Origin: Rhodobacterales bacterium 34-62-10
Lineage (GTDB): Bacteria > Pseudomonadota > Alphaproteobacteria > Rhodobacterales > Rhodobacteraceae
Direction of reading: 5' to 3'
Length of the DNA: 23,159 bases
Assembly (NCBI GenBank): GCA_002282555.1
Contig: NCJR01000064.1
Coordinates: 1 to 23,159, forward strand
Below, one piece after another: positions 2,008 through 23,159 of the stretch. A program made the translations under genes and the position numbers. The notes under the pieces are model-generated. The model was not told where the DNA came from. It saw only the letters and a program-made list of their open reading frames with translations, and searched no databases. Numbering within the stretch: position 1 is the stretch's first letter; every line of letters starts with the position of its first letter.

Positions 2008-2888
2008 CGCGTCACCCCATGCACCAGACGATTGCGGAAATAGCTGGACAGCTGATCAAAGAACACGATCGTCAGAAACAACAGGATGAAGATCGCCGCC
2101 GAAATGTCGAACCGTCCGGTCCCGAACGTCATGGCGTTGCGCAATTCATAGCCGATCCCGCCCGCCCCCACGAACCCCAGAATGGCCGAGGCGCGAATGT
2201 TGATCTCGAACCGCATCAACGCATAGCTGAGGTAATTCGGCGCCACCTGCGGCATCACCCCCAGCAGCATCCGCTGCCACCAGTTGGCGCCCACGGACTG
2301 CAACCCCTCAAGGGGTTTCAAATCCACATTCTCGGACACCTCGGAAAACAACTTGCCCAAAGCGCCTGCCGTATGCAGCGCGATGGCGATCATCGCGGGT
2401 ACCGGCCCGCCGCCCAGAACAAAGATCAGGACCAGCGCAATCACGATCTCTGGAAAGGCGCGCAGAATATCCATGATCCGCCGGAACACCGGGATCAGCC
2501 GCGGAAAAGGGGCCAACCCCCGGGTCGAGACCAGCGACAGACCAAGGCCAAGCACAGCCCCCAACAATGTCGATACCGCCGCGATATTGACCGTTTCGAT
2601 CAGCGCCGGGAAAAATTCGACGAAATAGCCCGGCAGGTTCGCCCGTTTTTCCCAGGCCTCGACCACCAGCCCGGTGGGGAAATCCAGAACCTTGGGCATC
2701 CCCTCCCAAAAACCGCCCGCCGACCGGTCCTCGACGATCCGGAAGCCGATGATCATCGCAATCACGAACAGCGCGATCATCAGGCCCGAATACATGCGCC
2801 GCGCCCGCACCATCCGCAGATAGCTGTCACTGTTCTGTGCAAGGTTGCGCGCAGCACCCGGGCTACGGGCAGCAGTCAGATCGGCCAT
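2004..2888 (-). CDS. phnE: phosphonate ABC transporter permease PhnE, standard form
   Basis: 294 residues starting MADLTAARS. The frame stays open 36 nt further upstream, but this ATG is preceded by GGAG about 7 nt away, and the upstream part crosses a hairpin, so I chose 2888. It has an N-terminal transmembrane helix (about 35-52) and a permease core with the coupling region ALGKLFSEVSENVD, the segment LEGLQSVGANWWQRM and a C-terminal FVGAGGIGYEL motif. These are typical of PhnE proteins of phosphonate importers. It overlaps the next phnE by four bases and is separated from phnD by 66 bp containing a stable stem-loop. Confidence 0.92.
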   Translation of the reverse strand: MADLTAARSPGAARNLAQNSDSYLRMVRARRMYSGLMIALFVIAMIIGFRIVEDRSAGGFWEGMPKVLDFPTGLVVEAWEKRANLPGYFVEFFPALIETVNIAAVSTLLGAVLGLGLSLVSTRGLAPFPRLIPVFRRIMDILRAFPEIVIALVLIFVLGGGPVPAMIAIALHTAGALGKLFSEVSENVDLKPLEGLQSVGANWWQRMLLGVMPQVAPNYLSYALMRFEINIRASAILGFVGAGGIGYELRNAMTFGTGRFDISAAIFILLFLTIVFFDQLSSYFRNRLVHGVTR

Positions 2889-2899
2889 GGAGGGTCTCC

Positions 2900-2935
2900 A
2901 AAAGAACGGGGTCCGGGGCAACACCCCGGAACCCC
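2900..2935 (-). terminator. stem-loop with U-rich tail between phnD and phnE
   Basis: On the minus strand, GGGG-T-TCCGGGG and CCCCGGA-CCCC pair across the loop TGTTG (an 11-bp stem with one bulged base). This is followed by G, TTC and TTTT just before the phnE ribosome-binding site. The position after a solute-binding-protein gene suggests partial termination or mRNA stabilisation, giving more PhnD than permease. Folding was done by eye only. Confidence 0.55.
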
Positions 2936-2954
2936 AAACATGGTAACAGTCGGA

Positions 2955-3863
2955 TCAGTTCGACATCTGCGACTTGCGCACGGCGATGATCGTCTCATAG
3001 GCGTCGTGACCGATCGGCGTGAACCCGGCTGTCTCGCCTGCTGCCACACCGTAGGCGCATTCAGGATCCTTGGCGTGCAGGTTCGCGGTCAGCTCGGTCA
3101 TCTTGGTCTTCACATCCTCGGGCAGCGCATTGCGCAGCACGATCGGGCCTTCCGGGATCGGCTTGGATTTCCAGATCTCGACCAGATCGTTCATGTCCAC
3201 CAGACCGGCATCCACCGCCTTGCGCAGCGCGCCCGAGTTGTAGCCGTCTTCCCAGTCGCCCTGACCATCGGCCCAGGTCACACCCGCATCCACATCGCCA
3301 TTGGCCACGGCCACGATCGTCTGCTCATGGCCGCCCACAAAGCGAACCTCACCGAAATAGTCGCCTGATTCCATGCTTGCGCCCGTGGCGGTCGGGATCT
3401 CGACCGACGGCACCAGATAGCCCGAGGTGGAGTTCGGATCACCAAAGGCAAAGACCTTGCCCTTCATGTCATCCAGCGAGGTGATGCCGCTGTCCTTGCG
3501 GGCAAAACCGATGGAATGATAGGTGAAGGACCCGTCAAGGTTGGTCTTGACCAGAACCGGCGTTACCGCTTCGGGCGCTTCCAGCCAGACTGCGGCATAG
3601 GCGGATGCGCCCAGCCATGCCATATCCAGCGTGCCACCGATCAGGCCCTGAATGACGCCGTTGTAATCAGCGGCGGTGAACAGCTTGGTGGGTACGCCCA
3701 GCGCTTCCTCGGTATAGGCACGGAAGCATTCGTTCGATGCCAGACGGTCCTGCGCGTTCTCGCCGCCCAGCAGACCGATACGGAATTCAGTGATCTGCTC
3801 CTGTGCGACTGCGGGGCTGATCAGGGCGGTCGTGGCGACCATTGCGGCAAACAGTTTCTTCAT
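2955..3863 (-). CDS. phnD: phosphonate/phosphate ABC transporter substrate-binding protein
   Basis: 302 residues. Periplasmic binding protein of the PhnD family. A signal peptide covers residues 1-21 (lysines at 2-3, hydrophobic core, SPAVAQ cleavage region). The mature part contains the family pattern FRIGLLGGENAQDRL, the ligand-loop region LGASAYAAVWLEA, KDSGITSLDDMKGKVFAFGDPNSTSGYLVP and GDVDAGVTWADG. The SxSGY-type and Trp/Tyr contacts in these blocks are those that hold phosphonate or phosphate groups in the family. The start ATG has GGAGAG 3 nt upstream. It lies 64 bp after phnC, with a terminator-like hairpin in between. The natural ligand (2-aminoethylphosphonate, other phosphonates, phosphite or phosphate) cannot be told from sequence. 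Confidence 0.93.
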   Translation of the reverse strand: MKKLFAAMVATTALISPAVAQEQITEFRIGLLGGENAQDRLASNECFRAYTEEALGVPTKLFTAADYNGVIQGLIGGTLDMAWLGASAYAAVWLEAPEAVTPVLVKTNLDGSFTYHSIGFARKDSGITSLDDMKGKVFAFGDPNSTSGYLVPSVEIPTATGASMESGDYFGEVRFVGGHEQTIVAVANGDVDAGVTWADGQGDWEDGYNSGALRKAVDAGLVDMNDLVEIWKSKPIPEGPIVLRNALPEDVKTKMTELTANLHAKDPECAYGVAAGETAGFTPIGHDAYETIIAVRKSQMSN

Positions 3864-3880
3864 GGCTCTCTCCGGTTTGC

Positions 3881-3908
3881 AAAAACCCCCGCGCGGATGC
3901 AGCGGGGG
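3881..3908 (-). terminator. terminator-like hairpin between phnC and phnD
   Basis: On the minus strand the arms CCCCCGC and GCGGGGG (perfect 7-bp GC stem, 9-nt loop) are followed at once by TTTTTG. This is the form of an intrinsic terminator or attenuator. The phnD ribosome-binding site comes directly after, so read-through or a separate start must supply phnD and the permeases. Confidence 0.6.
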
Positions 3909-3927
3909 CGGTTTCAGATATCAGATG

Positions 3928-4758
3928 TCAGGCGATGGCCTCGGCCGCGCGAATGGCGCGCGCCGCGGCGTCCGAGCGGTCCAGCGCCTCGATACTTGTG
4001 CTGGTGGCCTCCTCGCTGAAGCTCGCGTCAGCCCCATAGATGTCGCGCGCGACACCCGTGGTCAGTTGCGATGGCGTGCCGTCAAAGACCACGCGCCCGT
4101 CGCGCATCCCGATCACCCGGTCGCAATAGCGCCGTGCCGTATCCAGCGTGTGCAGGTTGGCGATGACCATGCGGCCATCTTCCTCGTGGATGCGGCGCAG
4201 CGCCTCCATCACTACCTGGGCATTCATCGGATCAAGGCTGGCAATTGGTTCATCGGCCAGAATGATCTTGGGATCCTGCATCAATGCCCGCGCGATGGCA
4301 ACGCGCTGCTGCTGGCCACCCGACAAGGCTTCGGCCCGTTTGGACGCATGGTCCGCGATCCCCAGACGATCCAGAATGGCAATCGCCATCTCGATATCCG
4401 CCGTGGGATAAAGGTTGAACATCGTCGCCAGCGTCGAACGGCGGTTCAGCGTGCCGTGCAGCACATTGCTCACCACATCCATACGCGGCACAAGGTTGAA
4501 CTGCTGAAAGATCATCGCACAATCGGACTGCCAGCCGCGCATTTCTGCACCCTTGAGGGTCAGGATATCGCGCCCCTCGTGGATGACCTGCCCGGATGTG
4601 GCATCGGTCAACCGGTTCAGCATCCGCAAAAGCGTAGATTTGCCAGCGCCCGAGCGCCCGATGATCCCGATCATCTTCGGGGCATCCACCGCGAAGCTCA
4701 CCGCATCGCAAGCAGTATTTGCGCCGAAACGCTTGGTCAGTTTGTTGACCGCAAACAT
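3928..4758 (-). CDS. phnC: phosphonate ABC transporter ATP-binding protein
   Basis: 276 residues. Cytoplasmic ATPase of the importer. Visible motifs are Walker [10 protein letters not shown] (34-42), a Q-loop FQQFN (84-88), signature LSGGQQQR (145-152), Walker B IILADEP (165-171) and the D-loop SLDP. The H-loop is in NLHTLD. The length and the motif series fit PhnC. The start ATG follows AGGGGGAA with about 6 nt spacing. It is the first gene of the minus-strand operon, and its upstream region, shared with the divergent amine-oxidase gene, contains a Pho-box-like element. Confidence 0.94.
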
Positions 4759-6046: not shown

Positions 6047-7906
6047 TCAACCCAGCGCATGGATACGCACCGCGGGACAGATCCGCTGGGCAATGTCGCA
6101 CAGATGCCGATGATGCGTCAGATAGATCACCTGCCCGACCCCCGCCATCCCGGACAGAAGCGCGAATGTCTCGGCGGCGCGGTCATCATCAAAGGTTTCC
6201 AGAATGTCATCGGCGATGAAGGGCACGGTGTCCCGCGCGCCCGCAATCTCGTGATAGCCCGCCACGCGCAGCGCCAGATAAAGCTGGAACCGCGTCCCCT
6301 TGGACAGATCCCGCGCCAGCTTCGACGCACCCGTGGCGGCCATGGCGACCAGGACCTCGCGCTCGCCCTCGGGTTGGGCGGCCAGCCCGCTGTAATCGCC
6401 CCGCGTGATCGTGCGAAACGCGTCCGACGCGCGCTGCATCATCGCGCTGCGATGGCTGTCACGGTAGCCCTGCAAGGCGTGATCCACCGCCGCGATCCCC
6501 AACCGCTGCCGCAGATAGGCGTGCGCCTCCTCGGTGATCTGCAACAGCAATGTCTGCCGCTCTTCCTGCAACCGCGCCACGGCATCATCGCCACCCACGG
6601 CATCGATCCGCCCCTGCGCCTGCGCCAGTTCCGCATAAAGCCGCTGCAATTCCTGCGCCTGCCGTTGCTGCGCCGCGATCAGCCCCTCGCGCTCGGCCGC
6701 CAGCGCGGGCCGATCCAACCCGTCCAGCGCGGCGACCGCATCGGCCAAACTGTCCGTCCCCATCCCCTCACAAATATCACGGGCCAGACGGTCGCGCTCT
6801 GCTGCCAAGACCTGCCGCCGCCCGGCCTGTTCGACCAACTGATGCAGGGATTGCACCTCATCACAGTCGAAATAGGCACAGAACGCAGCCAACCGCGCCT
6901 CGATCCCGGCCAGCGTCTCGTGCAGGGCCTGCGTTGTCTGCGCGCCCTCCGTCAGCTTGTTCTGCACCGCGTGACGCCGCGCCTGCCCGTCAAGCGCCAC
7001 GCGCTGCCGCGCCCGCAACGCAGCCCAGGACGCTGCCGGATCATTCCCCGGCAATCCCAGCCGCCCCGCCAGCGCCGTCACTGCATCTTCAAAGGCCGCA
7101 CGATTGGCCTGCATCTTGCCGATCCGGTCACGCAACCCGCGCAATTCGCGCCAAGCCTGCTCAACCCCCTGCAACAGATCCAGCACGCCGCCCATCAGCG
7201 CCACATCCGCACCATCCACCCCGACAGGCAACCGCGCACAGGCGGCCTGCCAATCATCCCGCCATCCCTGCATCACAGCCTGCGCCCGCGCCTGCGCCTC
7301 CTGCCGGCGCCGCAAATCCAGCGCAGCCGCCTCCCGCGCCTCGACCAGCGCGGCGCGGCCCTGCGCGCGCTCCAACAGCACCCGCGCTTGCGCGGCCAGC
7401 ACCGCCAGCGGCGCGCCTTCCGCCACATCCTGACCCGAGGCCGCAAGCCCCGCCGCCAGCGCATCCCTTGCCGCTACCTGCCGCCGCACAGCCCCCGCCA
7501 GATCGCGCGCCGCCGCCTGCCACGCGCCGTATCCCTCCAGCGCAGCCTCCCGCCGGCGCATCCAGTCCTCAAGCCCCTCAGCCGAGGTTGAACGGTCCAA
7601 CCCTTCGGGCAAGACGCGCGCCAGATCGTCCCGCACCGCCGCCATCCGCGCCACAGCTGCCGCGCCTTCGGTCTCATGCCGCGCCCGGCTGATCTCCAGC
7701 GCCGCCAACCGCGCGTCGGCCTCGGCCCGGTGCAGCGCGGCGCTCTGGGCCCGCGCCAGTGCCGCCGTCACCTGATCATCCTGCCTGAGTGCGGCTTCAA
7801 ACGCCTCGGCCGTCGCAGTGCTCAAGGCCGCGCGATGCGCCGCCCACAGGCTTTCCCTTGCCGCCCTGACCCGCGCGGCATCCTCCAGCGTGACCTGACC
7901 CGTCAT
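6047..7906 (-). CDS. YhaN/SbcC-like ATPase, C-terminal part (frameshifted gene)
   Basis: 619 residues from the ATG at 7906; the frame itself is open from 7996. Most of the chain is alanine/glutamine/arginine-rich coiled coil. The C-terminus holds the second half of an ABC-type ATPase head: the signature-like LSKGTRFQLYLALRVAGYHE, the Walker-B-like VPFIADDILETFDDDRA and the H-loop region VIYLTHHRHL. It lacks a Walker A motif, which is in the neighbouring 5' fragment in another frame. The two together match the order and length (about 1,130-1,150 residues) of YhaN-type SMC-like ATPases that work with a YhaO/SbcD nuclease. I see no ribosome-binding site before 7906, so it is unlikely to be an independent gene. 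Either the gene is broken or the assembled sequence has an indel. Confidence 0.8.
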   Translation of the reverse strand: MTGQVTLEDAARVRAARESLWAAHRAALSTATAEAFEAALRQDDQVTAALARAQSAALHRAEADARLAALEISRARHETEGAAAVARMAAVRDDLARVLPEGLDRSTSAEGLEDWMRRREAALEGYGAWQAAARDLAGAVRRQVAARDALAAGLAASGQDVAEGAPLAVLAAQARVLLERAQGRAALVEAREAAALDLRRRQEAQARAQAVMQGWRDDWQAACARLPVGVDGADVALMGGVLDLLQGVEQAWRELRGLRDRIGKMQANRAAFEDAVTALAGRLGLPGNDPAASWAALRARQRVALDGQARRHAVQNKLTEGAQTTQALHETLAGIEARLAAFCAYFDCDEVQSLHQLVEQAGRRQVLAAERDRLARDICEGMGTDSLADAVAALDGLDRPALAAEREGLIAAQQRQAQELQRLYAELAQAQGRIDAVGGDDAVARLQEERQTLLLQITEEAHAYLRQRLGIAAVDHALQGYRDSHRSAMMQRASDAFRTITRGDYSGLAAQPEGEREVLVAMAATGASKLARDLSKGTRFQLYLALRVAGYHEIAGARDTVPFIADDILETFDDDRAAETFALLSGMAGVGQVIYLTHHRHLCDIAQRICPAVRIHALG

Positions 7907-9434
7907 CCGTGGCCCGCGCGACCTCGGCCTCGGCGCGCTCCTGCGCCCGCTGCGCCTCGGCCAGAACTTGCTTCCAGCCCTGTATCTGCGCCGCATCAGG
8001 CAAGGTCAGCGCCGCCAACGCCGCCCCATCGCCGCGCCACGGCAACAGCCGCGCCAATCCCGCATCCATCCGGTCGCGCGCCGCCGTTTCAAGGCCCTGC
8101 GCCCGTTCCAACGCACCTGCCGGATCGCCCTGCAACACGTCCTGCACGACCTGCCCCAGCAGCGCCAGATCCGGCACCGCCCCGCCATCTCCACCCAACC
8201 GCGCGGTCAGGTCCGCCAAGCGCTCAGCCGCCGCTGCCTCCTCCTGCCGCGCGGTCTCCAGCGCCGCTGTCACACCCGAGTGCCGCTCCATCAGCCCGCG
8301 CAGGCTGGCCACAAGCGGCGCAGGCAGCACCAGATCGGCAGGATCACGCCCCGCCGCCCCCAATTGCGCCAGCAGATCGTCGATCTGCCCCTGCACCTGA
8401 TCCGCCTCGGCCCGGCGCGCAGGCAAATCGCGCACTGCCCCGTCAAAGTCGGATTTCAACGCCTCGGCCGCATCCATCGCAGCACCCTGCGCCAACATCG
8501 CGGGATCATCGGTCGCGGCCTCCCTCTCGGCGCGCAAACTCTCCATCTGCGCGACCTGCCCCTCAAGACGCACCGCCGTCTGCCCATGGTCCCGCGACAG
8601 ATCCGACAGTTCTGCCGCCCAGCCCGGCGGCACCGGCGGCAAATCCGGCAGCGCCCTCAGATCGGCCTCGGCCATCATCAGACGCGTCACCAATGGCAGC
8701 GCCGCCAACTGCCGCTCGACCAGATGCAGCCGCGCCAGCGTGTCATCCTGCACCGCCTGCGCCGCATCCAGCGCCGCCTGCGCCTGATCGCGTGCCTGCG
8801 ACAGCACCGCAAACTCCCGCGCGCCGACATCCTGCGCGGCAATCGCGTCCTCAACCGCCGCCAGCGCCTTTTTCAGATCGGCCAGCCCGCCTGTACGCCC
8901 GCCCGGTTTGAAGAACGCCGCCGTTCTGCTGCGCAACCCGTCCAGCGCCTGCCCCATCTCGGCCAACCCGCTTGAGGCGGTGAACAGCATCTGCCCCAGA
9001 TCACCCTGACTGGACAGGATGCTGTCGCCCCCCTTTTCCAGCGTCTCGTCATCCAGACTGAACATCGCCTCATAGCCCGCGCGATCAATCCCGCCGAGCA
9101 GACCGGGCATCATCGCCTCAGGCAGGGCATTCCCCGCTGGGTCGGTCAGCGTGCCACCCCGCCCCTTGGTGCGGATCACCTCCAGCACCGTGCCGCCCGC
9201 GTCGATCGCCGCCCCCAGCCGCATCGTGCCGTAAGGGTGAATGAAATCCATCCGGCTTTGCGTGGGAATACCATAAAGCAGGTCCAGCCAGCCCTGCATG
9301 GTCGTGGATTTCCCCGCCTCGTTGGGGCCATAAATGATGTGGAAATCCGGCCCGCCCTCCGGGGCCGCCCCGAAATCAAGGCTTTTGTCGGTAAACTTGC
9401 CATAGCGTGTCAGATCAAGGCGGCGCAGGCGCAT
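7797..9434 (-). CDS. YhaN/SbcC-like AAA ATPase, N-terminal part (frameshifted gene)
   Basis: 545 codons. The first ~520 are family-like, with MRLRRLDLTRYGKF, Walker A GPNEAGKS (36-43), LLYGIPTQSRMDFIHPYG and LSSQGDLGQMLFTASSGL. Long coiled-coil heptads follow. After about residue 515 the frame turns into G/C-rich nonsense ending at 7797, while the genuine coding signal goes on in the +1 frame (9434 and 7906 differ by 1 mod 3). The start overlaps the stop of the upstream nuclease gene by one base (TGATG, 9432-9436), a coupled start. The intact protein would be the ATPase partner of a YhaO-type nuclease in DNA end processing or recombination repair. Confidence 0.8.
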   Translation of the reverse strand: MRLRRLDLTRYGKFTDKSLDFGAAPEGGPDFHIIYGPNEAGKSTTMQGWLDLLYGIPTQSRMDFIHPYGTMRLGAAIDAGGTVLEVIRTKGRGGTLTDPAGNALPEAMMPGLLGGIDRAGYEAMFSLDDETLEKGGDSILSSQGDLGQMLFTASSGLAEMGQALDGLRSRTAAFFKPGGRTGGLADLKKALAAVEDAIAAQDVGAREFAVLSQARDQAQAALDAAQAVQDDTLARLHLVERQLAALPLVTRLMMAEADLRALPDLPPVPPGWAAELSDLSRDHGQTAVRLEGQVAQMESLRAEREAATDDPAMLAQGAAMDAAEALKSDFDGAVRDLPARRAEADQVQGQIDDLLAQLGAAGRDPADLVLPAPLVASLRGLMERHSGVTAALETARQEEAAAAERLADLTARLGGDGGAVPDLALLGQVVQDVLQGDPAGALERAQGLETAARDRMDAGLARLLPWRGDGAALAALTLPDAAQIQGWKQVLAEAQRAQERAEAEVARATDDGSGHAGGCRAGQGGKGKPVGGASRGLEHCDGRGV

Positions 9435-10702
9435 CAGGCGTCAGCCTCCAAGCCATGCAGATGCGCCAGCACCTCTGCCGCCCCCTCTTGCAACATGGCA
9501 TCCCGGATCGCCGCCTGCGCCGCCGGATCATCGCCCAGCATGCCGCGCAACTCCTTGGGCAGCGCCTTGATCAGCGCCTCCATCACCGCATCCGCCTCGA
9601 TCAGAATCGCGGCGGGGGGCGACGTCATGCCCGCGATCTGCCGCGAAAGTTCCGCCAAAGGTCCGGCGGTATCCGCAGGCAGATCATCGGTGCAGGCCAG
9701 TTCCACCTTGTCGATCCACAGCGTGCCGATCCCTTCGGCGGTCAGCCGGGCTTCATCAGCCAGCAATCCAAGGTCACGCCGCAGCCGCCACAACAGCGGT
9801 GTGCGCCCCGTCAACACAGGCCGCAGCACCAGATGATCCTCGCCGTGATCCCGCCGCGCCGCACGCAGCGCCCCTGACAAGGCCGCCACAACACCCGGCC
9901 AATCCTCGGCCCCGCCCAAGGGCACCTCCACCCGCTCAAACCGCGCCACGGCAGTCGCCCGCGCCTCGACCGTCACGGCGCCGTCATCCGCCACCGTCAC
10001 CAGCGTCACGGATTTTGCACCCGCCTCGCCGATATCGCGCCCCTGCGGGATACCGGGCATCACCACATGACAGTCACCCGCATGATGCGCCCGCGCATGA
10101 ATATGGCCCAGCGCCCAGTAATCAAAACCACTGCCCTGCAAATCCACCAACCGACAGGGCGCATAGGGATCATGCCCCGCCGCCCCATCCAGACTGGTAT
10201 GCAGCATGCCGATATTCACCGCCCCCGGCACAGGGGCCTTGAACCGCCCCAGCAGGCTGTCTGGCGCATGGGGCCGCGCGAAACTGATCCCGTGAATGGC
10301 CACCTCCAACGCGCCCTTGCTACGCCGCGCCACCCCCGCTTGTGCACCGAACACCGTGACCGACGGCGGCAAGATCAACTGCGCCGTGATCCGCGATTCC
10401 GCGTCATGGTTGCCCCGGATGATGAACGTCTCGATCCCCGCAGCATCCAGCCGCCGCAAGCCTTGCGTCAAGAACCGCGCCGTCTTCATTGAGGTCTGCG
10501 CCCCGTCATAAAGATCCCCCGCGATCAGCAGCGCATCCACCGCCTCCTCCAGACACAGATCAATAATCCGCGTGAAGGCCGCACGGCTGGCATTGCCGAT
10601 CACCTCGGCCAAAGCGCTATCCCGCAGCGCCAACGATTTCAGCGGCGAATCCAGATGCAGATCAGCCGTGTGAACAAAACGAAAGGGCAAACAAGGCTCC
10701 AT
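9434..10702 (-). CDS. YhaO/SbcD-like metallophosphoesterase, DNA repair exonuclease
   Basis: 422 residues. It carries the metallophosphoesterase metal-binding series: DLHLDSP near the start (D-x-H), LLIAGDLYDG (GDxxD), IIRGNHDAES (GNHD), GMLHTSLDG and YWALGHIHAR (GHxH). These residues bind two Mn-type ions and cut DNA ends in Mre11/SbcD/YhaO enzymes. The C-terminal 180 residues form the capping/ATPase-contact region. The downstream ATPase gene overlaps by one base, so this is a two-gene complex like yhaO-yhaN or sbcD-sbcC. The first ATG at 10702 has no clear ribosome-binding site, and I see no better start before the DLHLD motif. Confidence 0.88.
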   Translation of the reverse strand: MEPCLPFRFVHTADLHLDSPLKSLALRDSALAEVIGNASRAAFTRIIDLCLEEAVDALLIAGDLYDGAQTSMKTARFLTQGLRRLDAAGIETFIIRGNHDAESRITAQLILPPSVTVFGAQAGVARRSKGALEVAIHGISFARPHAPDSLLGRFKAPVPGAVNIGMLHTSLDGAAGHDPYAPCRLVDLQGSGFDYWALGHIHARAHHAGDCHVVMPGIPQGRDIGEAGAKSVTLVTVADDGAVTVEARATAVARFERVEVPLGGAEDWPGVVAALSGALRAARRDHGEDHLVLRPVLTGRTPLLWRLRRDLGLLADEARLTAEGIGTLWIDKVELACTDDLPADTAGPLAELSRQIAGMTSPPAAILIEADAVMEALIKALPKELRGMLGDDPAAQAAIRDAMLQEGAAEVLAHLHGLEADA

Positions 10703-11983
10703 CTGACAGCGGCACCGGGAAGGCTCAGCCTGTCCTGCACACCTCAGGTTGTCAAACCCAAACCAAGCGCGGGCGGCTGCTTCATAGGTGTCGCTGGGAT
10801 GTGTTCTCGGATCGGCAAGTCAGGGGAAACTGTGCGTTTCAGCGGGCCCCGCCACCCCAGCCAGAGATATTTCAGAAAATGTCGACTGTGCGGGCGAAAA
10901 GCTGACTGGAAGCGAAGCAACCGACGAGGCAACAGCCGTCCATAGCCTCGATCACGGCGCAGCACAGACCGCCGTGCAGGATCAGTTGGTCCAGCGATCC
11001 GCGCCCACACAGGCGATTATGGGGGCGTCAAACTGACCACCGAGATGTCACCATTCTTGTAGCCGGAAAGGGTCAGAATTCGCGCTGCAACAATCAGACC
11101 AGCCTGAGGTCTCCACAATAGGCAGAGGTCTCGCACGGTGATCGCAGAAAGGCCCGCTCATCCATGAAATCGAACCATGGCGCCATGTAGCTGTAATCCT
11201 CAACCAGTTCCTCGATATAGGCGGGAACGTCGTCCACAAGCCGTTCATCGGGGTCGCGCCTGTCGGGGAAGTCCTCCCAGAAGGTTGGCCTATATGTCAC
11301 CCGCCCTGTGTTGCGATGAACAACCTGCTATAGAGCCCCGATCAAGGGATTGTCAGGACGCCGCCCCAAGGCCGATGCGAAAGCCTTGGTCACGGCCGCG
11401 CTGGTGACGTTGGGCTGGATGATCGCGTACCAGCCCTGAAGGTCCAGAGCGGCCGCAAGGTCACCGTCACCACGGGGCAGGGTGTCGCCACCAAGCGCAC
11501 CCCGGTTGGCATATAGCGCGCTCCTTGCAAGGACCCTGCCGCTTCTGCCGTCAGGTTGAGGACGGGTTTCTTCCAAGATTGGACATATACCGGGCAGTTC
11601 TCAACTGACTTTCATAAGGATCAACTGCTGTCACTCTGGTCGAACCAGCCACAACCCCTCCCGCCAACAATAACCACCATTTGTCATCCGTTGCACGATG
11701 GCTGCTGCGGTTCGTGCGCCGGACCCCATGGCCTCAAGAATGGCGGTCGAGACAGACAGGCACGCCTCTTGATCGCCTGCCCTGCCCTGCTGCAAATCTC
11801 TCGCCGCCGCAGTCGCCGGGTTGAGCGACAGGATCGTCTCGATCGCTGCTCTACACTGCGGGTCGATCCGCGCACCCAAGGCGTCAAGGAACCACACCCC
11901 GGTCGTCCCATCCGCTGCGCTTTGGGTCCGGTTTGCACTGCAACGGGCTTTGGCCGCCGAACTCACCATGAGCCTCACGCAAG
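10703..11983. other. gene-poor, decayed accessory region
   Basis: About 1.3 kb with no complete recognisable gene. Base composition is less G/C-biased at third positions than in the flanking genes. The minus strand holds short protein-like stretches in shifting frames (see separate entries at 11017-11576 and 11631-11987). The segment 10703-10860 must contain the promoter of the nuclease gene: a TTGACA (minus strand, 10750-10755) is present, but the matching -10 is poor. No transposase, inverted-repeat ends or integrase could be recognised. Confidence 0.6.
11017..11576 (-). pseudogene. unrecognised coding remnant interrupted by an in-frame TAG and a frameshift
   Basis: Minus-strand frame from a TTG at 11576. 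Protein-like text (LDLQGWYAIIQPNVTSAAV, then ALGRRPDNPLIGAL) ends at TAG 11328-11330. The same frame then continues with QVVHRNTGRVTYRPTFW, acidic text (VPAYIEELVEDYSYMAPWF), to a TGA at 11094. In the next frame coding-like text (LIVAARILTLSGYKNG) runs to TAA at 11017-11019. Codon use is gene-like on both sides of the TAG. No family is recognised. It could instead be two small genes (11328-11576 and a GTG-started 11094-11300), but neither has a good ribosome-binding site. Confidence 0.4.
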
Positions 11984-15334: not shown

Positions 15335-15430
15335 GGGATTTGCCAAGGCGCATATGGAGACATCCCCGCTCCATTCAATCCTTTGCCTTGACCCTTGCCA
15401 CGGCAGAGCGCCCGGCGGATAAGCAGGCGC

Positions 15431-16576
15431 ATGACTGACAGCACCCTGTTCGAGATTTTTCTGGCCGTCCCTCCGGGGCTGGAACCCACGCTGGCCCAGG
15501 AGGTCGCGGCGCTTGGCTTTGCGTCGCCTGCGATCGTGCCCGGTGGCGTGACCTTTCAAGGCGACTGGCCGGATGTCTGGCGCGCAAACCTGTCCGTGCG
15601 GGGCGCGACCCGCGTGCTGGCGCGGATCGGCGCGTTCCGCGTGCTGCATCTGGCCCAACTCGACAAGCGCGCGCGCAAGTTCGACTGGGCCGCCGTGCTG
15701 CGCCCCGATGTGCCGGTGCGGGTCGAGGTCACCTGCAAGGCGTCGAAAATCTATCACGCCGGTGCCGCGAAACAGCGGATCGAGACCGCCCTGCGCGAAA
15801 CGCTGGGTGTCGAAATACTGACGGGTCCGGCGGTCGAGGACGCGCCCGAGGATACCTTTGAAATCCGCCTGAAAGCGCGGATCGAGGATGACCTGTGCAC
15901 CTTCAGCATCGACACGACAGGCGAGTCCCTGCACAAGCGCGGCCACAAGCAGGCCATGGCCAAGGCCCCCTTGCGCGAAACACTGGCCGCTCTTTTCCTG
16001 CGACAGTGCGGCTATGACGGAAGCGAACCCGTTGTCGATCCCATGTGCGGCTCCGGCACCTTCGTGATCGAGGCGGCGGAAATGGCCCTTGGCCTGCTGC
16101 CCGGAAGGGGTCGAAGCTATGCCTTTGAAAAGCTTGTCACTTTTAATGTCCCATCGTGGGACATTCTGAAAAACGCCGCGCCCGCCCGTGCAACACCCCT
16201 CCGGTTTTACGGCTCTGACCGCGACGCAGGCGCGATCCGCGCCGCCAGCGCCAACGCCGACCGCGCGGACGTGGCCGGGATCACCAGCTTTCACTGCCAC
16301 GCCATCAGCGACCTGCCCCGCCCCGACGGACCGCCAGGTCTGGTCATGGTCAACCCGCCCTACGGCGCCCGGATCGGCGAGCGCAAACTCCTCTTCGCCC
16401 TCTACGGCGCGCTTGGCAAGACACTGTCCGAACGGTTCCGAGGCTGGCGCGTCGGCCTTGTCACCAGCGATCCGGCTCTGGCCAAGGCCACCGCCTTGCC
16501 GTTCCTGCCCCCCGCCCCGCCCGTCTCGAATGGCGGCCTCAAGGTCACGCTTTACCGCACCGCCCCCTTGCCCTGA
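15431..16576 (+). CDS. THUMP-domain class I SAM-dependent RNA methyltransferase (RlmL/TrmN-like)
   Basis: 381 residues. The N-terminal part (about 1-165) is a ferredoxin-like plus THUMP RNA-binding module. The C-terminal Rossmann methyltransferase has the SAM-binding motif DPMCGSGTFVIEAAE (203-217) and the catalytic NPPYGARIG (308-316), the NPPY form used by guanine-N2 methyltransferases. The family modifies rRNA (RlmL N-half, m2G) or tRNA; the exact target is uncertain. The start MTDSTLF at 15431 fits the family N-terminus better than the upstream in-frame ATG at 15395. This looks like a housekeeping gene between accessory ones. Confidence 0.88.
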   Translation: MTDSTLFEIFLAVPPGLEPTLAQEVAALGFASPAIVPGGVTFQGDWPDVWRANLSVRGATRVLARIGAFRVLHLAQLDKRARKFDWAAVLRPDVPVRVEVTCKASKIYHAGAAKQRIETALRETLGVEILTGPAVEDAPEDTFEIRLKARIEDDLCTFSIDTTGESLHKRGHKQAMAKAPLRETLAALFLRQCGYDGSEPVVDPMCGSGTFVIEAAEMALGLLPGRGRSYAFEKLVTFNVPSWDILKNAAPARATPLRFYGSDRDAGAIRAASANADRADVAGITSFHCHAISDLPRPDGPPGLVMVNPPYGARIGERKLLFALYGALGKTLSERFRGWRVGLVTSDPALAKATALPFLPPAPPVSNGGLKVTLYRTAPLP

Positions 16577-16608
16577 TACTGTCCTCGCCCAGCCACCGGA
16601 GAACACCC

Positions 16609-17406
16609 ATGCCCCACCCCCTCGTGACCCAACAGGACATCGCTGATTTCCAGCGCGACGGCGTCGTCCTGATCCGGGGCCTGTTCCGCGATCACGTGGA
16701 CACCCTCGCCGCCGGGATCGACCGCAACATGGCCGAACCGGGTCCCTATGCCGCCGAGAACCTCAAGGCAGGCGAAGCCGGCCGCTTCTTCGACGACTAC
16801 TGCAACTGGCAGCGCATCCCCGAATTCGCGGAGGTGATCCGCCAATCCCCCGCCGCAGAAGTCGCCGCCGACCTGATGGGATCGGACAGCGTCCAGCTTT
16901 TCCACGACCATATCCTCGTCAAGGAACCCGGCACCGCCAAGCCAACCCCATGGCATCAGGACGGCCCCTATTACTTTGTCGAAGGCCGCCAGACCGTCAG
17001 CTTCTGGTCGCCGCTTGATCCCGTGCGCGAAGCCAGCCTGCGCTGCGTGGCCGGATCACATCTCTGGCCGCGCCCCGTCCTGCCGACCCGCTGGCTGTCC
17101 GAGGAGAATTTCTACCCCGATGCCGATGCCTATATGCCCGTCCCCGATCCCGACGCCGAAGGGATGGAGGTGCGTGAATGGCACATGGAACCCGGTGACG
17201 CCGTGGCCTTCCATTACAGCACCCTGCACGGCGCGCGTGGCAATGCGACAGCCCAGCGCCGCCGCGCCTTTTCCCTGCGGTTGGTGGGCGATGATGCCCG
17301 CTATGTCGAACGCCCCGGCCGCACCTCGCCCCCGTTTCCTGGGCATGACATGCAGCCGGGTCAAAAGCTGCGCGAGGATTGGTTCCCGGTGCTGTTCACG
17401 CGCTGA
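16609..17406 (+). CDS. phytanoyl-CoA dioxygenase (PhyH) family Fe(II)/2-oxoglutarate oxygenase
   Basis: 265 residues. The iron-binding facial triad is visible as H116-x-D118 in PWHQDGPYYF and the distal H207 in YSTLHGARGN. Arginines about ten residues later (QRRRAFSLR) would hold 2-oxoglutarate. The length matches the family. PhyH proteins hydroxylate acyl-CoAs, osmolytes or small natural products; the substrate is unknown. The ribosome-binding site GGAGA precedes the ATG. It is 32 bp after the methyltransferase gene and 6 bp before an MFS transporter gene, so the latter two probably share a transcript. Confidence 0.9.
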   Translation: MPHPLVTQQDIADFQRDGVVLIRGLFRDHVDTLAAGIDRNMAEPGPYAAENLKAGEAGRFFDDYCNWQRIPEFAEVIRQSPAAEVAADLMGSDSVQLFHDHILVKEPGTAKPTPWHQDGPYYFVEGRQTVSFWSPLDPVREASLRCVAGSHLWPRPVLPTRWLSEENFYPDADAYMPVPDPDAEGMEVREWHMEPGDAVAFHYSTLHGARGNATAQRRRAFSLRLVGDDARYVERPGRTSPPFPGHDMQPGQKLREDWFPVLFTR

Positions 17407-17412
17407 ACAGGG

Positions 17413-18615
17413 ATGCGCCTGCCGGTCCTGTTCATCCTGATCACCGTCGTGATCGACGCCATGGGGATCGGCCTGATCCTGCCCGTGATGCCCGACCTCA
17501 TCCGCGAAACGACAGGCGGCACGCTGGCGCAGGCGGCTGTCTGGGGTGGCATCCTCTCGACTGTGTTTGCCGCAATGCAATTCCTGTTCGGCCCGATCCT
17601 TGGCGCGCTGTCCGACAGGTTCGGTCGGCGGCCCATCCTGCTGGTCTCGCTTCTGGTGATGGCGGTGGATTACGTGGTGATGGCGCTGGCCGGGTCGATC
17701 TGGCTGCTGGTGGCCGGGCGCGTGGTGGGCGGAATCACGGCGGCGACCCATGCCACAGCCACGGCTTACATGGCCGACATCTCGGCCCCGCAGGACAAGG
17801 CGCGCAACTTCGGCCTGATCGGGGCGGCCTTTGGTCTGGGCTTTGTGCTGGGTCCGGTCATGGGCGGGCTCTTGGCCGAATGGGGCACGCGCGCGCCTTT
17901 CATCGCCGCTGCAGGCCTTGCACTGATCAATGCCGTCTTTGGCTGGCTGGTCCTGCGCGAGACCGTGACCGACAGCATCCGCCGCCCCTTCCAGTGGCGC
18001 CGCGCCAATCCGTTCGGCGCGATCCGCGCGCTGTCCCGGCTGGCCGGGGTCAGTCCACTGCTCTGGGTCTGGTTCCTCTATCATTTCGCAACGGTGGTTT
18101 ATCCCGCGATCTGGGCCTTTTTCACCGCCGCCCGCTTTGGCTGGTCGCCGGGATTGATCGGGGTGTCATTGGCGGTTTACGGCCTGTCTCTGGCGGTGGC
18201 GCAGGGAACGCTGGTCGGCCCTGCAATCCGCGCCTTTGGCGATGCTCGCACGGTGCTTCTGGGGCTGGTGATCCAGATTGCATCACTGGTGACGCTTGGG
18301 TTCATCACATCGGGCAACCTGTTGCTGATGCTGATTCCGATCACGGCTATCGGTGCGGTCGGCCTGCCGGCCTTGCAGGGTATCCTGTCGCGCGCCGTGC
18401 CCGACAATGCACAAGGCGAATTGCAGGGCGTGCTGACCAGCCTGACAGCGGTGGCCATGGTGCTTGCGCCCTTGGTCATGACGCAGACCTTCGCGCGGTT
18501 TACCCGCATGGATGCTGCCATCTACCTGCCCGGTGCGCCCTTTCTGGTGTCGGCGGCGATCATGGTGATCGCCTTGGCGATCTATCAGGCACGCGGGCGC
18601 CATCTGGTGCAGTAA
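17413..18615 (+). CDS. MFS transporter, TetA-type drug:H+ antiporter-like
   Basis: 400 residues and about twelve hydrophobic segments. TM1 has VVIDAMGIGLILPVMPDLIRE, and the loop 2-3 motif A is GALSDRFGRRPILL (D68). This resembles the TetA tetracycline/multidrug branch of the major facilitator superfamily, but many chromosomal members of the branch do not confer tetracycline resistance. The start ATG lies 6 bp after the PhyH stop, with only a CAGGG close before it, so translational coupling is likely. An exporter or importer of the PhyH substrate or product is possible but not shown. Confidence 0.87.
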   Translation: MRLPVLFILITVVIDAMGIGLILPVMPDLIRETTGGTLAQAAVWGGILSTVFAAMQFLFGPILGALSDRFGRRPILLVSLLVMAVDYVVMALAGSIWLLVAGRVVGGITAATHATATAYMADISAPQDKARNFGLIGAAFGLGFVLGPVMGGLLAEWGTRAPFIAAAGLALINAVFGWLVLRETVTDSIRRPFQWRRANPFGAIRALSRLAGVSPLLWVWFLYHFATVVYPAIWAFFTAARFGWSPGLIGVSLAVYGLSLAVAQGTLVGPAIRAFGDARTVLLGLVIQIASLVTLGFITSGNLLLMLIPITAIGAVGLPALQGILSRAVPDNAQGELQGVLTSLTAVAMVLAPLVMTQTFARFTRMDAAIYLPGAPFLVSAAIMVIALAIYQARGRHLVQ

Positions 18616-18722
18616 GCAGGCCGAATTGCGACACCAAAGCTGTTGTTTTGCGCTTGCACCCCTGATCACGCGCGGGCAGGTTCTGGGACAGCGCAAAGAC
18701 CAGACTGAAAAGGACACCCCCC

Positions 18723-19811
18723 ATGCAGATGATCAAGGCCGCCGTGTGCCACGCCTTCGGCACCCCCCTGACCATCGAGGAGGTACGCCTGCGCGCCCCC
18801 GAAATGGGCGAGGTCGAGGTGAAGCTGGACGCCGTGGCGATCTGTCATTCCGACATCTCCTTTGCCGAGGGCGCGTGGGGCGGCACCCTGCCTGCGGTTT
18901 ACGGCCATGAGGCGGCAGGGCGTGTGACCGCCATCGGCGCAGGCGTTCCAGGTCTGGCCGTGGGGGATAGCGTCGCCGTGACGCTGATCCGCGCATGTGG
19001 CGGCTGCACCAGTTGCGGCTCGGGCAAGCCGACCCTGTGCGAGACGCCCTATAACGGCGACAAGGGGCCACTGACCACCGCCGATGGCGGCGTGCTGCAT
19101 CAGGCGATGGCCTGTGGCGCCTTTGCCGAAGCGGTCGTGGTCGATCACAGCCAGGTTGTGAAAATCCCCGAGGATATGGCCAAGGACGTGGCCTCCCTTC
19201 TGTCCTGTGGTGTGATCACCGGCGTCGGCGCGGTGGTGAATGCCGCTGCCTTGCGCGCAGGTCAGGACGTGGTCGTCATCGGCGCGGGCGGCGTCGGTCT
19301 GAACGCCATTCAGGGCGCGCGCATCGCCGGGGCCCGCCGCATCATCGCCGTTGACATGTCTGAGGAAAAACTGGCCATCGCCCGCGAATTCGGCGCGACC
19401 GACGGCATCCTTGCGACCGAGGCCAAGCCGTGGTCGCGCGCCAAGCGCATCCTGGGGCGCGGGGCCGATGCGGTGATCGTGACCGTGGGCGCGATCCCGG
19501 CCTATGACACCGCACCCCGCTATCTGGGCTATGGTGGCCGCGTCGTCATGGTGGGTATGCCCCATTCCGGCCAGACCTCGACCTATGAACCCGTGGTCAT
19601 GGCTGCCGTCGGGCAAGGCATGATCGGCTCCAAGATGGGCGATGTGGTGATCAAGCGCGACATTCCGTGGATGGTGGACCTCTATCAACAAGGCCGCCTC
19701 AAGCTGGATGAGCTGATCTCGGGCCGCTGGCGGCTGGACCAGATCAACGAGGCGATTGCCGACACCAAAACAGGTGCCGCGCGCCGCAACGTGATCATCC
19801 TGAACGACTGA
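18723..19811 (+). CDS. zinc-dependent alcohol dehydrogenase (MDR superfamily)
   Basis: 362 residues. Catalytic-zinc ligands are C41 (AICHSD), H62-E63 (YGHEAAG) and probably C162 (LLSCGVITG). The structural-zinc site has four cysteines, C92, C95, C98 and C106 (CGGCTSCGSGKPTLC). The cofactor motif is VVVIGAGGVGLNA (GxGxxG at 187-192), with D211 at the end of the second strand, which favours NAD over NADP. The protein oxidises an alcohol or reduces an aldehyde; the substrate is unknown. The AAAGGA ribosome-binding site precedes the ATG at 18723; a second ATG two codons on is possible. It is followed 46 bp later by a sugar-acid-dehydratase-like gene, suggesting a shared catabolic path. Confidence 0.92.
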   Translation: MQMIKAAVCHAFGTPLTIEEVRLRAPEMGEVEVKLDAVAICHSDISFAEGAWGGTLPAVYGHEAAGRVTAIGAGVPGLAVGDSVAVTLIRACGGCTSCGSGKPTLCETPYNGDKGPLTTADGGVLHQAMACGAFAEAVVVDHSQVVKIPEDMAKDVASLLSCGVITGVGAVVNAAALRAGQDVVVIGAGGVGLNAIQGARIAGARRIIAVDMSEEKLAIAREFGATDGILATEAKPWSRAKRILGRGADAVIVTVGAIPAYDTAPRYLGYGGRVVMVGMPHSGQTSTYEPVVMAAVGQGMIGSKMGDVVIKRDIPWMVDLYQQGRLKLDELISGRWRLDQINEAIADTKTGAARRNVIILND

Positions 19812-19857
19812 CGCCGCCCTTTCACTGTTCCCCAAATACTCATAGGAGCAAGAGACG

Positions 19858-21090
19858 ATGAAACTGGCTGACCTTGACATCATCGTCACCGCGCCCCCGG
19901 CACCGGGCTGGGGCGGGCGCTACTGGATTTTCGTGAAACTCACGACCGACACCGGGATCGTCGGCTGGGGCGAATGTTACGCCTCGACCGTGGGTCCCGT
20001 CGCCATGCGCGCGGTGATCGAGGATGTCTTTGCCCGCCACATGCAGGGCGAGAACCCGGAAAACATCGAAAAGATGTTCCGCCGGGTCTATTCATCCGGC
20101 TTCACCCAGCGGCCCGATCTGACGGTGATGGGCGCGTTTTCGGGGCTGGAGATCGCCTGCTGGGACATTCTGGGCAAGGCCCGGAACCGCCCGGTCTGGG
20201 CCTTGCTGGGGGGCAAGATCAACGACCGGCTGCGCGCCTATACCTATCTCTACCCGCTGCCACATCACGAACACGCGCCCTTCTGGGTCTCGCCCGAGAT
20301 GGCGGCGGAATCGGCGCTGGACGCTGTGGATCGCGGCTATACGGCGGTCAAGTTCGATCCGGCTGGCCCCTATACGATGCGCGGCGGGCATATGCCTGCG
20401 ATGCGGGATATCTCGCGCTCGGTCGCCTTCTGCCGCGCCATCCGCGAGGCGGTGGGGGATCGGGCGGATCTGCTCTTTGGCACCCATGGGCAGTTCACTA
20501 CAGCAGGCGCGATCCGGCTGGGTCAGGCGTTGGAACCCTATAGTCCGCTATGGTATGAAGAACCGATGCCGCCAGACAATCTGCTGGAATTCCAGAAGGT
20601 TGCGAACGCCGTGCGGATACCGCTCGCCACCGGTGAGCGGATGACGACCAAGACCGAATTCGCCACACTTCTGCGCACGGGGGGTGCGGAAATCCTGCAA
20701 CCCGCCTTGGGGCGCGCGGGCGGCATCTGGGAGGTCAAGAAAATCGCTGCCATGGCCGAGGCGTTCAACGCGCAGATCGCCCCGCATCTTTATGCCGGAC
20801 CCATCGAATGGGCGGCGAACATCCATCTGGCGGCCTCGATCCCGAACCTGCTGATGATCGAAACCATCGAGACGCCCTTCCATGACGGGCTGATCAAGGG
20901 GATGATCCGGGTCGAGAACGGCCATGTCATTCCGCCCGACCGCCCCGGTCTGGGGATCGAGATCGACGAGGATCTGGCCCGTGCCCATCCCTTCACCGGG
21001 ACGGGTCTTCACCTGCAAATGCAGGAAGACCCTTGCGATTATCAGAATGAGAACCATTTTGAAGGCGGTGCGCCAGCTTATGAGCAGTGA
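19858..21090 (+). CDS. mandelate racemase/muconate lactonizing enzyme family protein (sugar-acid dehydratase-like)
   Basis: 410 residues. The N-terminal enolase cap has GWGECYASTV and the linker LEIACWDILGKARNRPVWALLGG. The barrel has VKFDPAG (165-167), the second and third metal ligands in YEEP (234-235) and ATGER (E260), and a candidate catalytic His in IAPH (H310). At the first metal position, where galactonate-type dehydratases have DFHGR, this protein has GTHGQ (208-212), so His is kept but Asp is Gly. Enolase-superfamily members of this branch dehydrate aldonic acids or related compounds; the substrate is not predictable. The strong AGGAG site (19844-19848) sets the start. It lies next to the alcohol dehydrogenase and a regulator gene. 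Confidence 0.88.
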   Translation: MKLADLDIIVTAPPAPGWGGRYWIFVKLTTDTGIVGWGECYASTVGPVAMRAVIEDVFARHMQGENPENIEKMFRRVYSSGFTQRPDLTVMGAFSGLEIACWDILGKARNRPVWALLGGKINDRLRAYTYLYPLPHHEHAPFWVSPEMAAESALDAVDRGYTAVKFDPAGPYTMRGGHMPAMRDISRSVAFCRAIREAVGDRADLLFGTHGQFTTAGAIRLGQALEPYSPLWYEEPMPPDNLLEFQKVANAVRIPLATGERMTTKTEFATLLRTGGAEILQPALGRAGGIWEVKKIAAMAEAFNAQIAPHLYAGPIEWAANIHLAASIPNLLMIETIETPFHDGLIKGMIRVENGHVIPPDRPGLGIEIDEDLARAHPFTGTGLHLQMQEDPCDYQNENHFEGGAPAYEQ

Positions 21091-21140
21091 TATCGCTCTT
21101 TCCGCAAGGCTGTGATAGGAAAGGCAGAGGGATCGACCGA

Positions 21141-21506
21141 ATGCAGGAACTTGCCGAATTGACCACGCAAAGCCCCCCCGCCCCGCCAAACGAAATGGCG
21201 CGCAGCGCCGAGGCTGCGGCGGCCTATCTCAAGACGCTGGCCCATGAGGGTCGGTTGATGATCCTGTGTCATCTCGGCTCGGGCGAGAAATCCGTGGGCG
21301 AACTGGAAGAGTTGCTGGAGATCCGGCAAGCGGCTGTCAGCCAGATGCTGGCGCGCCTGCGCGAGGAGGATCTGGTCAAGACCCGGCGCGAGGGCAAGAC
21401 GATCTTCTACAGTCTTGCCGACAACAACACTTACGAAGTGATCAGCCTGCTTTACCGGTTGTTCTGCAGCCCGGACGGGAAGGACACTACAAAGACATCC
21501 TGCTGA
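21141..21506 (+). CDS. ArsR-family regulator of the SqrR/BigR (persulfide sensor) type
   Basis: 121 residues from MQELAELT. The frame is open from a GTG at 21087 that overlaps the previous stop, but a GAGGG site precedes the ATG at 21141. The winged helix is ArsR-like: LKTLAHEGRLMILCHLGSGEKSV, LEELLEIRQAAVSQMLARLRE, TRREGKTIFYSLAD. Cysteines C43 (start of helix alpha-2 region) and C109 (LYRLFC, last helix) are 66 residues apart, the same spacing as C41/C107 in Rhodobacter capsulatus SqrR and C42/C108 in BigR, where they form a tetrasulfide or disulfide. ArsR metal-site motifs (ELCVC) are absent. Its gene is 50 bp after the dehydratase gene and probably on the same transcript. Confidence 0.88.
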   Translation: MQELAELTTQSPPAPPNEMARSAEAAAAYLKTLAHEGRLMILCHLGSGEKSVGELEELLEIRQAAVSQMLARLREEDLVKTRREGKTIFYSLADNNTYEVISLLYRLFCSPDGKDTTKTSC

Positions 21507-21528
21507 GTGACGCGCAGACAGTCGGTGC

Positions 21529-22455
21529 TCACCGTGTGACCCCCGCCTCAAGCTCTGTGGCGATCTGCCCGATCAGGCCCCGCAACCATCGGTGCATGGG
21601 CGAATGATGGGTGCGGGCCGTCCAATAGAGGTCAATCTCGAATGGTGCCGGAAAGGGACAGTCCACGATCCTGAGGCCCGGCCCATAGGACAGCGCCGTG
21701 CGCAGGGGCACCGTCGCAATCAGGTCGGTGCCGGGCAGGATATCGCGCAACGTCGCGGGGCTTGGCAGTTCCAGCACCATGTTGGGGGCCAGACCCGCCG
21801 CCTCCATCTCGACCAGATACCGTGATCGCCAATTGCCACCATAGGTCACAACAGCCTGCGGCGCGGCGGCAAAATCGTCGACATCCAGCGGCTTGTCGCC
21901 CAGCGGATTGTCCGGTGCCATGACACAGACGTAGTGATCCCCAAGCACGCGCCGACCAAAGAACCCGGCGTCACCGATTTGAACCGGCCCCACAAGCACG
22001 TCACATTCCCCCCGGCTGAGTTGGTCGCGCCCGCGCACGGTCGAGGTGATGACCCCCAGTTTCATCCCCGGTGCCACCGCACGCAGGCGGCGGACCAACG
22101 CAGGCACCAATGTGGCCCGCTCATAATAATTGCACGACAGCACGATCGTCGTATCGGCACGGGCAGGATCAAAGGCACGCGGCGCGGACAGGGCCATGAA
22201 CGCATCCACCATGCGCGCGGCCTCGATCACGATCTCGTCGCAGCGGTCGGTGGGGACGATCCCCGCGCCCTGCCGCACAAAAAGCGGATCGCCAAACGCA
22301 CGCCGCAATCTGTCGATCGTATAACTGACCGAGGACTGGTTCACGCCCAGAACATCGGCCGCCCGCGAGAACGACCCGTAATCATGCACCAGCCGCAGCA
22401 CACGCAGCGCCGCGAAATCCACCGCCAGCGGATCGCCATCCTTGGGTGTGACCAT
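21529..22455 (-). CDS. LysR-family transcriptional regulator
   Basis: 308 residues. The N-terminal HTH (about 10-70) reads ALRVLRLVHDYGSFSRAADV, LGVNQSSVSYTIDRLRRAFG, DPLFVRQGAGIVPT, a classical LysR pattern. The rest is the two-lobed effector-binding domain (IVLSCNYYERATLVPALV, GECDVLVGPVQIGDAGFF). The ATG at 22455 has a perfect AGGAGG about 7 nt upstream, which decides against the longer TTG-started frame at 22479. It is divergent from the P450 gene, with a palindrome in the 127-bp intergenic region, so it probably controls that gene. It is convergent with the ArsR gene; the two stops are 22 bp apart. Confidence 0.9.
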   Translation of the reverse strand: MVTPKDGDPLAVDFAALRVLRLVHDYGSFSRAADVLGVNQSSVSYTIDRLRRAFGDPLFVRQGAGIVPTDRCDEIVIEAARMVDAFMALSAPRAFDPARADTTIVLSCNYYERATLVPALVRRLRAVAPGMKLGVITSTVRGRDQLSRGECDVLVGPVQIGDAGFFGRRVLGDHYVCVMAPDNPLGDKPLDVDDFAAAPQAVVTYGGNWRSRYLVEMEAAGLAPNMVLELPSPATLRDILPGTDLIATVPLRTALSYGPGLRIVDCPFPAPFEIDLYWTARTHHSPMHRWLRGLIGQIATELEAGVTR

Positions 22456-22493
22456 GCGACTGCCTCCTGTCCGCACCAACCTGATCAGATTAT

Positions 22494-22510
22494 TCGATAG
22501 TCTCTATCGA
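22494..22510. promoter_or_regulatory. operator-like palindrome between LysR and P450 genes
   Basis: TCGATAG and CTATCGA form a perfect 7-bp inverted repeat around TCT. A second short palindrome, CTGATCAG, lies at 22481-22488. The site is 39 bp before the LysR start and about 73 bp before the P450 start, where LysR regulators normally bind. It is not an exact T-N11-A box. Confidence 0.5.
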
Positions 22511-22582
22511 TTCCATCGGATTGTCCCATGCCACACGATCCTCTAGGGTCAGCCATGCGATCAGGCAGGGAAGGGCTGGACC

Positions 22583-23159
22583 GTGACACTTGATACACCC
22601 ATCGCACCGCAGGCACCGCTGGACGAGCAGATCACGATCCAGCAGCTGACGCTGGACCCCTATACCGTTTACAAACGTCTGCGGGCCGAAGCGCCGGTCC
22701 TGCGCGTCAAGGCGGTGGGGCGGACCCTGCTGACCAAGGCGGCGGATACAAAATACGTCAAGGACAACCCTGTCCTGTTCAGTTCGAACGATCCCAACAC
22801 CCCGATGCAGCGCGCCTTCCGCGCCCATACCCTGATGCGCAAGGACGGCGCTGAACACGCGGCCGAACGCGGCGCAATGGCACCGGCCTTCACCGCGCGC
22901 AACATCAAGCAATGCTGGGAGCCGATCTATACACGCATCGCCGAAGATTATGTCGGCCGCCTGCCGCGTGGTGAAACCTTGATTTTTGGCCGTTCACACT
23001 GTGATGTTTGCCAACGATCGCTGGGCATGGCTGATCTGGTGCCGGTTTTGAGTTTCATTATCTCGCGCGGCCGCTGCAGGTATTGTGCGGCGCCGATTAA
23101 GCTGCATCTCTTGCTCGTCGAACTCGCCAGTCTAGCGATGGCGCTCTCGCTTTGCGCCG
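22583..23159 (+). CDS. cytochrome P450 N-terminal region, fused in frame to a prepilin-peptidase segment (partial)
   Basis: 192 codons from GTG at 22583 (GGGAAGG upstream), open at the window edge. Residues 1-131 are P450-like: DPYTVYKRLRAEAPVLRV, NPVLFSSNDPNTPMQR and the helix-C motif RKDGAEHAAERGAMAPAF, which contacts haem. A normal P450 would continue toward the I-helix after RLPRGET (126-132). Here the chain changes into another family: LIFGRSHCDVCQRSLGM, VPVLSFIISRGRCRYCAAP. The haem Cys and I-helix are absent from the window. Without the fusion this would be a bacterial class I P450 controlled by the divergent LysR gene; as read it would not be a working P450. Confidence 0.75.
   Translation, partial: MTLDTPIAPQAPLDEQITIQQLTLDPYTVYKRLRAEAPVLRVKAVGRTLLTKAADTKYVKDNPVLFSSNDPNTPMQRAFRAHTLMRKDGAEHAAERGAMAPAFTARNIKQCWEPIYTRIAEDYVGRLPRGETLIFGRSHCDVCQRSLGMADLVPVLSFIISRGRCRYCAAPIKLHLLLVELASLAMALSLCA
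22979..23159 (+). other. type IV prepilin peptidase (GspO/PilD) tetracysteine domain segment
   Basis: In the same frame as the P450 start, codons 133-192 encode CxxC (C140, C143), 21 residues, then CxxC (C165, C168), with DLVPVLSF between them and a hydrophobic LLLVELASLAMALSL after. The spacing equals that of the zinc-binding domain of PilD-type prepilin peptidases, and the residues before it (RLPRGET, FGRSHC) also fit those enzymes. The catalytic aspartates would be beyond the window. G+C is about 57 % here, lower than in the surrounding genes by eye. Confidence 0.75.

Follow-up and report, generated by a model that had tools for sequence, protein, structure and literature searches.

The open reading frame that joins a cytochrome P450 to a prepilin peptidase at the right end of the window (the entire contig C511, i.e. 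the whole stretch of DNA analysed, 23,159 bases) is best explained as a chimeric contig end assembled from two bacterial genomes. Judged from sequence comparisons, we assign this reading a probability of about 95%, and under it no fused protein exists. The two halves of the frame had separate, intact relatives, the join fell within a zone of about 22 nt, and the contig ended 181 nt past the switch. The P450-peptidase fusion is thus almost certainly neither a new protein nor a real feature.

Results

The fused reading frame

The preliminary description had reported a P450 gene continuing in frame into a prepilin-peptidase domain. This was upheld by the list of open reading frames and their translation, in which 22583–23158 on the forward strand formed a single frame free of stops up to the contig end (Table 1). 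In a Pfam profile search, PF06750 (A24_N_bact) matched residues 124–190 of the fused product P0001 with an E-value of 1e-20 and a score of 74 bits (cut-off 23), covering profile positions 14–80 of 84; the peptidase domain expected from about codon 133 onwards was therefore present. The motifs CDVC and CRYC supplied the tetracysteine pattern (CxxC...CxxC) of the A24 N-terminal domain. The PF01478 membrane peptidase domain with the catalytic aspartates, present in the unfused relative P0003, was absent from the window, as the contig stops before it.

PF00067 was not reported on P0001 in the Pfam search, and NCBIfam P450 models gave weak matches far below their cut-offs (best E-value 4.5e-4), which is unsurprising because only an N-terminal piece of a P450 is present. 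The frame did not encode a full-length P450: it switched past residue 131, and P0001 lacked the sequence FGNGPHFCQG of the same-genus P450 L004, which we take to be the cysteine haem-ligand motif. In the protein database, the fused product itself corresponded to entry P0002, comprising one sequence on one contig.

Table 1. Features at the right end of the window, with the evidence for each.
Feature	Coordinates	Strand	Basis
LysR-type regulator gene beside the P450 gene	21529..22479	-	Open reading frame; family assigned by reading, no profile search
CYP104-like cytochrome P450 gene, N-terminal portion only, truncated by the junction	22583..22957	+	Protein identity to same-genus genes
Junction zone encoding RLPRGET, at most ~22 nt common to both source genes	22957..22978	+	Protein and DNA comparisons
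Tetracysteine region of an A24 prepilin peptidase, probably foreign and left incomplete by the contig end	22979..23159	+	PF06750; identity to P0003

The P450 half and its native context

Residues 1–131, identified earlier as the beginning of a cytochrome P450, were 90–97% identical to P450 genes in all six same-genus genomes. These orthologues were unfused, lying in stop-to-stop frames of 425–442 aa (6/6 genomes), and past RLPRGET all six (L002–L007) continued as P450, starting with VDLF. In blastn comparisons with same-genus loci, the window was 87–88% identical to L051 from 15387 to 22965 (in two pieces), 85% identical to L053 from 17413 to 22977 and 81% identical to L052 from 21560 to 22977. 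All three similarities stopped inside the junction zone, yet the P450 gene continues in those genomes. The neighbouring LysR-type gene was covered by the similarity to L051 and L053, and by that to L052 from 21560. This left-flank similarity, which includes the LysR-type gene, shows the left side to be native, and the P450 half belongs to the window's own genus.

Further features of the contig were noted by eye. On the minus strand at 6047–9434, a large AAA-type ATPase gene (SbcC/YhaN-like) seemed to be split into two overlapping frames (7797–9434 and 6047–7996), resembling a frameshift near 7797–7996; either an error in sequencing or a disrupted gene could account for this. It is adjoined by a metallophosphoesterase-like gene at 9434–10702. 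A phosphonate-type ABC transporter set, with two permeases, a binding protein and an ATPase, occupied the minus strand at 649–4758. About 850 bases at 10703–11555 contained no listed open reading frame of at least 100 aa on either strand.

The peptidase half and its candidate donor

A protein search with residues 124–192 returned five proteins from 15 candidates, namely the window's own P0002, P0003 and three more distant peptidases. P0003 is an ordinary, unfused prepilin peptidase of 261 aa with both peptidase domains, and represents four sequences on 13 contigs. From RLPRGET to the contig end, 67/67 residues were the same as in P0003. The relatives of P0003 were otherwise 43–55% identical among the matches listed (best 120 of 662), and the peptidase half would therefore be a piece of P0003's gene.

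Full-length PilD-type enzymes had been called atypical of Rhodobacterales, and the profile searches agreed. PF06750 was found in none of the six same-genus genomes and in 33 of the 393 other family genomes searched (with a stop inside in 1 of the 33), in searches that were each positive in 8 of 14 named control genomes. By these profile matches, the domain is uncommon in the family, though not foreign to it. Of 385 class genomes, a set that includes the window's own, 159 contained a match to P0003; apart from C511, none of the matches listed exceeded 50% identity. Donor DNA was sought in collections that may lack entries for the window's genome and for those closest to it: viral contigs yielded nothing, genome contigs one distant relative (31% identity), and plasmids 35 records, all below 60% identity, including two from Leisingera and one from Tropicibacter. 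A further plasmid search, to which the same exclusion may apply, gave no match. The organism names among the best 120 of 662 P0003 relatives were mostly Acetobacter, Gluconobacter, Azospirillum and Nitrospirillum, genera placed outside Rhodobacterales. The P450 half, by its matches, fell within the genus; for the peptidase half, the names of the relatives suggest a donor outside Rhodobacterales, although such names are no proof.

The junction

RLPRGET was encoded at 22958–22978, exactly where it had been placed before. Immediately upstream, the window encodes Gly (GGC) as opposed to Asp in P0003, so that peptidase-like DNA starts no earlier than 22957. At 22979 the window has T, as opposed to G in all seven aligned P450 relatives; P450-like DNA therefore most likely ends by 22978, assuming that the genome's own gene also has G. 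Together these limits leave the two sources about 22 nt to share at most. At the protein level, P0003 and all six same-genus P450s contain RLPRGET, and from this we infer the DNA identity of the shared string and its exact length.

Of the 120 P450 relatives listed, 72 contained RLPRGE, as did 22 of 122 peptidases, P0003 among them; the longer RLPRGET occurred in 36/120 and 3/122, respectively. The form is common in these P450s and a minority form in peptidases. The string does occur in both families, as described earlier, but the wording that peptidases "often" carry it was too strong.

The change in base composition described previously was also present: GC was 62.4% (third positions, 76.8%) at 22583–22957 and 56.1% (third positions, 63.3%) at 22979–23158. 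Since GC was as low in 54 of 2280 overlapping 180-nt tiles from the remainder of the contig, the drop, taken alone, is weak evidence.

Missing pieces and other fused proteins

A search of the window's genome with PF00067 gave five matches on four contigs. It was silent on the N-terminal piece on C511 itself, and is thus informative only for the later part of a P450. The 280-residue piece L025 on contig C167 (genome G000) was considered as the missing P450 remainder and rejected, as its sequence is that of a different P450; it represents another P450 gene of the window's genome that runs into a contig edge, here on its 5' side. By reading, the pieces on the other three PF00067-positive contigs were also different P450s. 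The P450 remainder and the downstream genes, as arranged in genome G002, were not found on the other contigs of the window's genome, where DNA of the G002 region matched only C511:22863–22965 (40 of 144 first-look candidates scored). The remainder of the peptidase was likewise not found in the window's genome, in which P0003 matched only C511, over residues 39–107.

Homologues with the same fused architecture would have spoken for a real fusion. Apart from the window's own product, there was no second fused protein among the best 120 of 1455 P450 matches; 119 had a P450 domain only, and P0025 had no domain call. P0025 was considered as a second chimera and rejected, since it aligned to the P450 P0009 over residues 5–297 of 299. 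There was none among the best 120 of 662 peptidase matches, all with the two peptidase domains only, in a search that scored 7997 candidates only; fused fragments of small length could have scored too low to enter the best 120 matches of either half. Among the five matches of the short search, the window's own product was the sole fused protein.

Discussion

Origin of the fused frame

The genome consists of 542 contigs, is 72.22% complete and has an estimated contamination of 1.47%, figures that point to a metagenome-assembled genome; the names attached to near P450 proteins suggest that it belongs to Rhodobacterales. Up to about 22957–22978, the sequence would be the beginning of an ordinary P450 gene native to this genome. 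Within the RLPRGET string, the assembler (or, with lower likelihood, a chimera formed in the library) would have stepped onto the matching string of a peptidase gene from another bacterium in the same sample, run 181 nt further and stopped. We infer that the step took place during assembly and that both organisms were present in one sample. An intact, separate relative was found for each side (P450s unfused in 6/6 same-genus genomes, and the unfused P0003). The preliminary description had leaned towards a chimera created in assembly where the two genes have a short string in common, and the native left half, the right half identical to P0003 and the contig end 181 nt on all support it in this.

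The length of the shared string can be set beside assembly practice. In PMC4585024 the initial k was 21 for SPAdes and, depending on the data set, 21 or 25 for MEGAHIT; the study counts chimeras in simulated viral metagenomes and partly blames them on bad k-mers or alternative graph paths. The maximum of about 22 nt in C511 is close to the small k-mer of 21 in that study, although the assembler behind C511 may differ from those used there.

Some observations run against a chimera. The join is in frame, for which the odds are about one in three by chance, but this is to be expected if both genes encode an identical seven residues at that point. Contamination of the genome is estimated at a low 1.47%. 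The PF06750 domain does occur in the family (33/393 other genomes) and, with distant P0003 relatives on Leisingera and Tropicibacter plasmids, such a gene could conceivably have been acquired. A real and very recent fusion, in which the P450 gene took up a horizontally acquired foreign peptidase gene through recombination at a microhomology of about 21 nt, would draw on the same occurrence in the family, on the open frame, on a PF06750 match that is whole from profile position 14, and on a shared coding string that could act as the microhomology. We nevertheless consider it very unlikely. The event would need to be young enough for 67/67 residues still to equal P0003, the contig would have to stop by coincidence 181 nt after the join, and neither the best 120 of 1455 P450 matches nor the best 120 of 662 peptidase matches held a second example. 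Such a fusion would also cut the P450 upstream of the cysteine haem-ligand motif seen in its relatives and substitute P450 sequence for the peptidase's first 40 residues.

A chimeric molecule formed during library preparation, by ligation or by template switching (a process that likewise exploits short stretches in common), and then faithfully assembled would yield the same sequence picture. This origin seems even more improbable, since a single molecule would rarely give enough reads for contig extension, and a wrong step in the assembly graph near a gap would more simply explain the contig end. We therefore retain the assembly chimera as the preferred explanation. The case is a caution that a wrong step at a short shared coding string can leave an uninterrupted frame whose product passes for a credible protein of two domains, and contig ends of draft genomes should be suspected before gene fusions are called.

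Comparison with known systems

The left half is closest to CYP104-like (PinF2-like) P450s of Rhodobacterales, since some of the database proteins near it bear the names "cytochrome P450 family 104" and "Cytochrome P450-pinF2". It differs from them in being without the remaining two thirds of the protein, including the cysteine haem-ligand motif of its relatives. With A24 prepilin peptidases of the GspO/PilD type, the window shares the tetracysteine part, identical to P0003 over 67 residues; unlike these enzymes, it has P450 residues as its protein start, and the catalytic part would lie past the contig end. The whole resembles the chimeric metagenome contigs treated in PMC4585024, in which two sources likewise meet at a string roughly as long as a k-mer. 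It differs in that the seven residues encoded at the join are identical in both genes, and the false frame therefore stays open and resembles a fusion protein.
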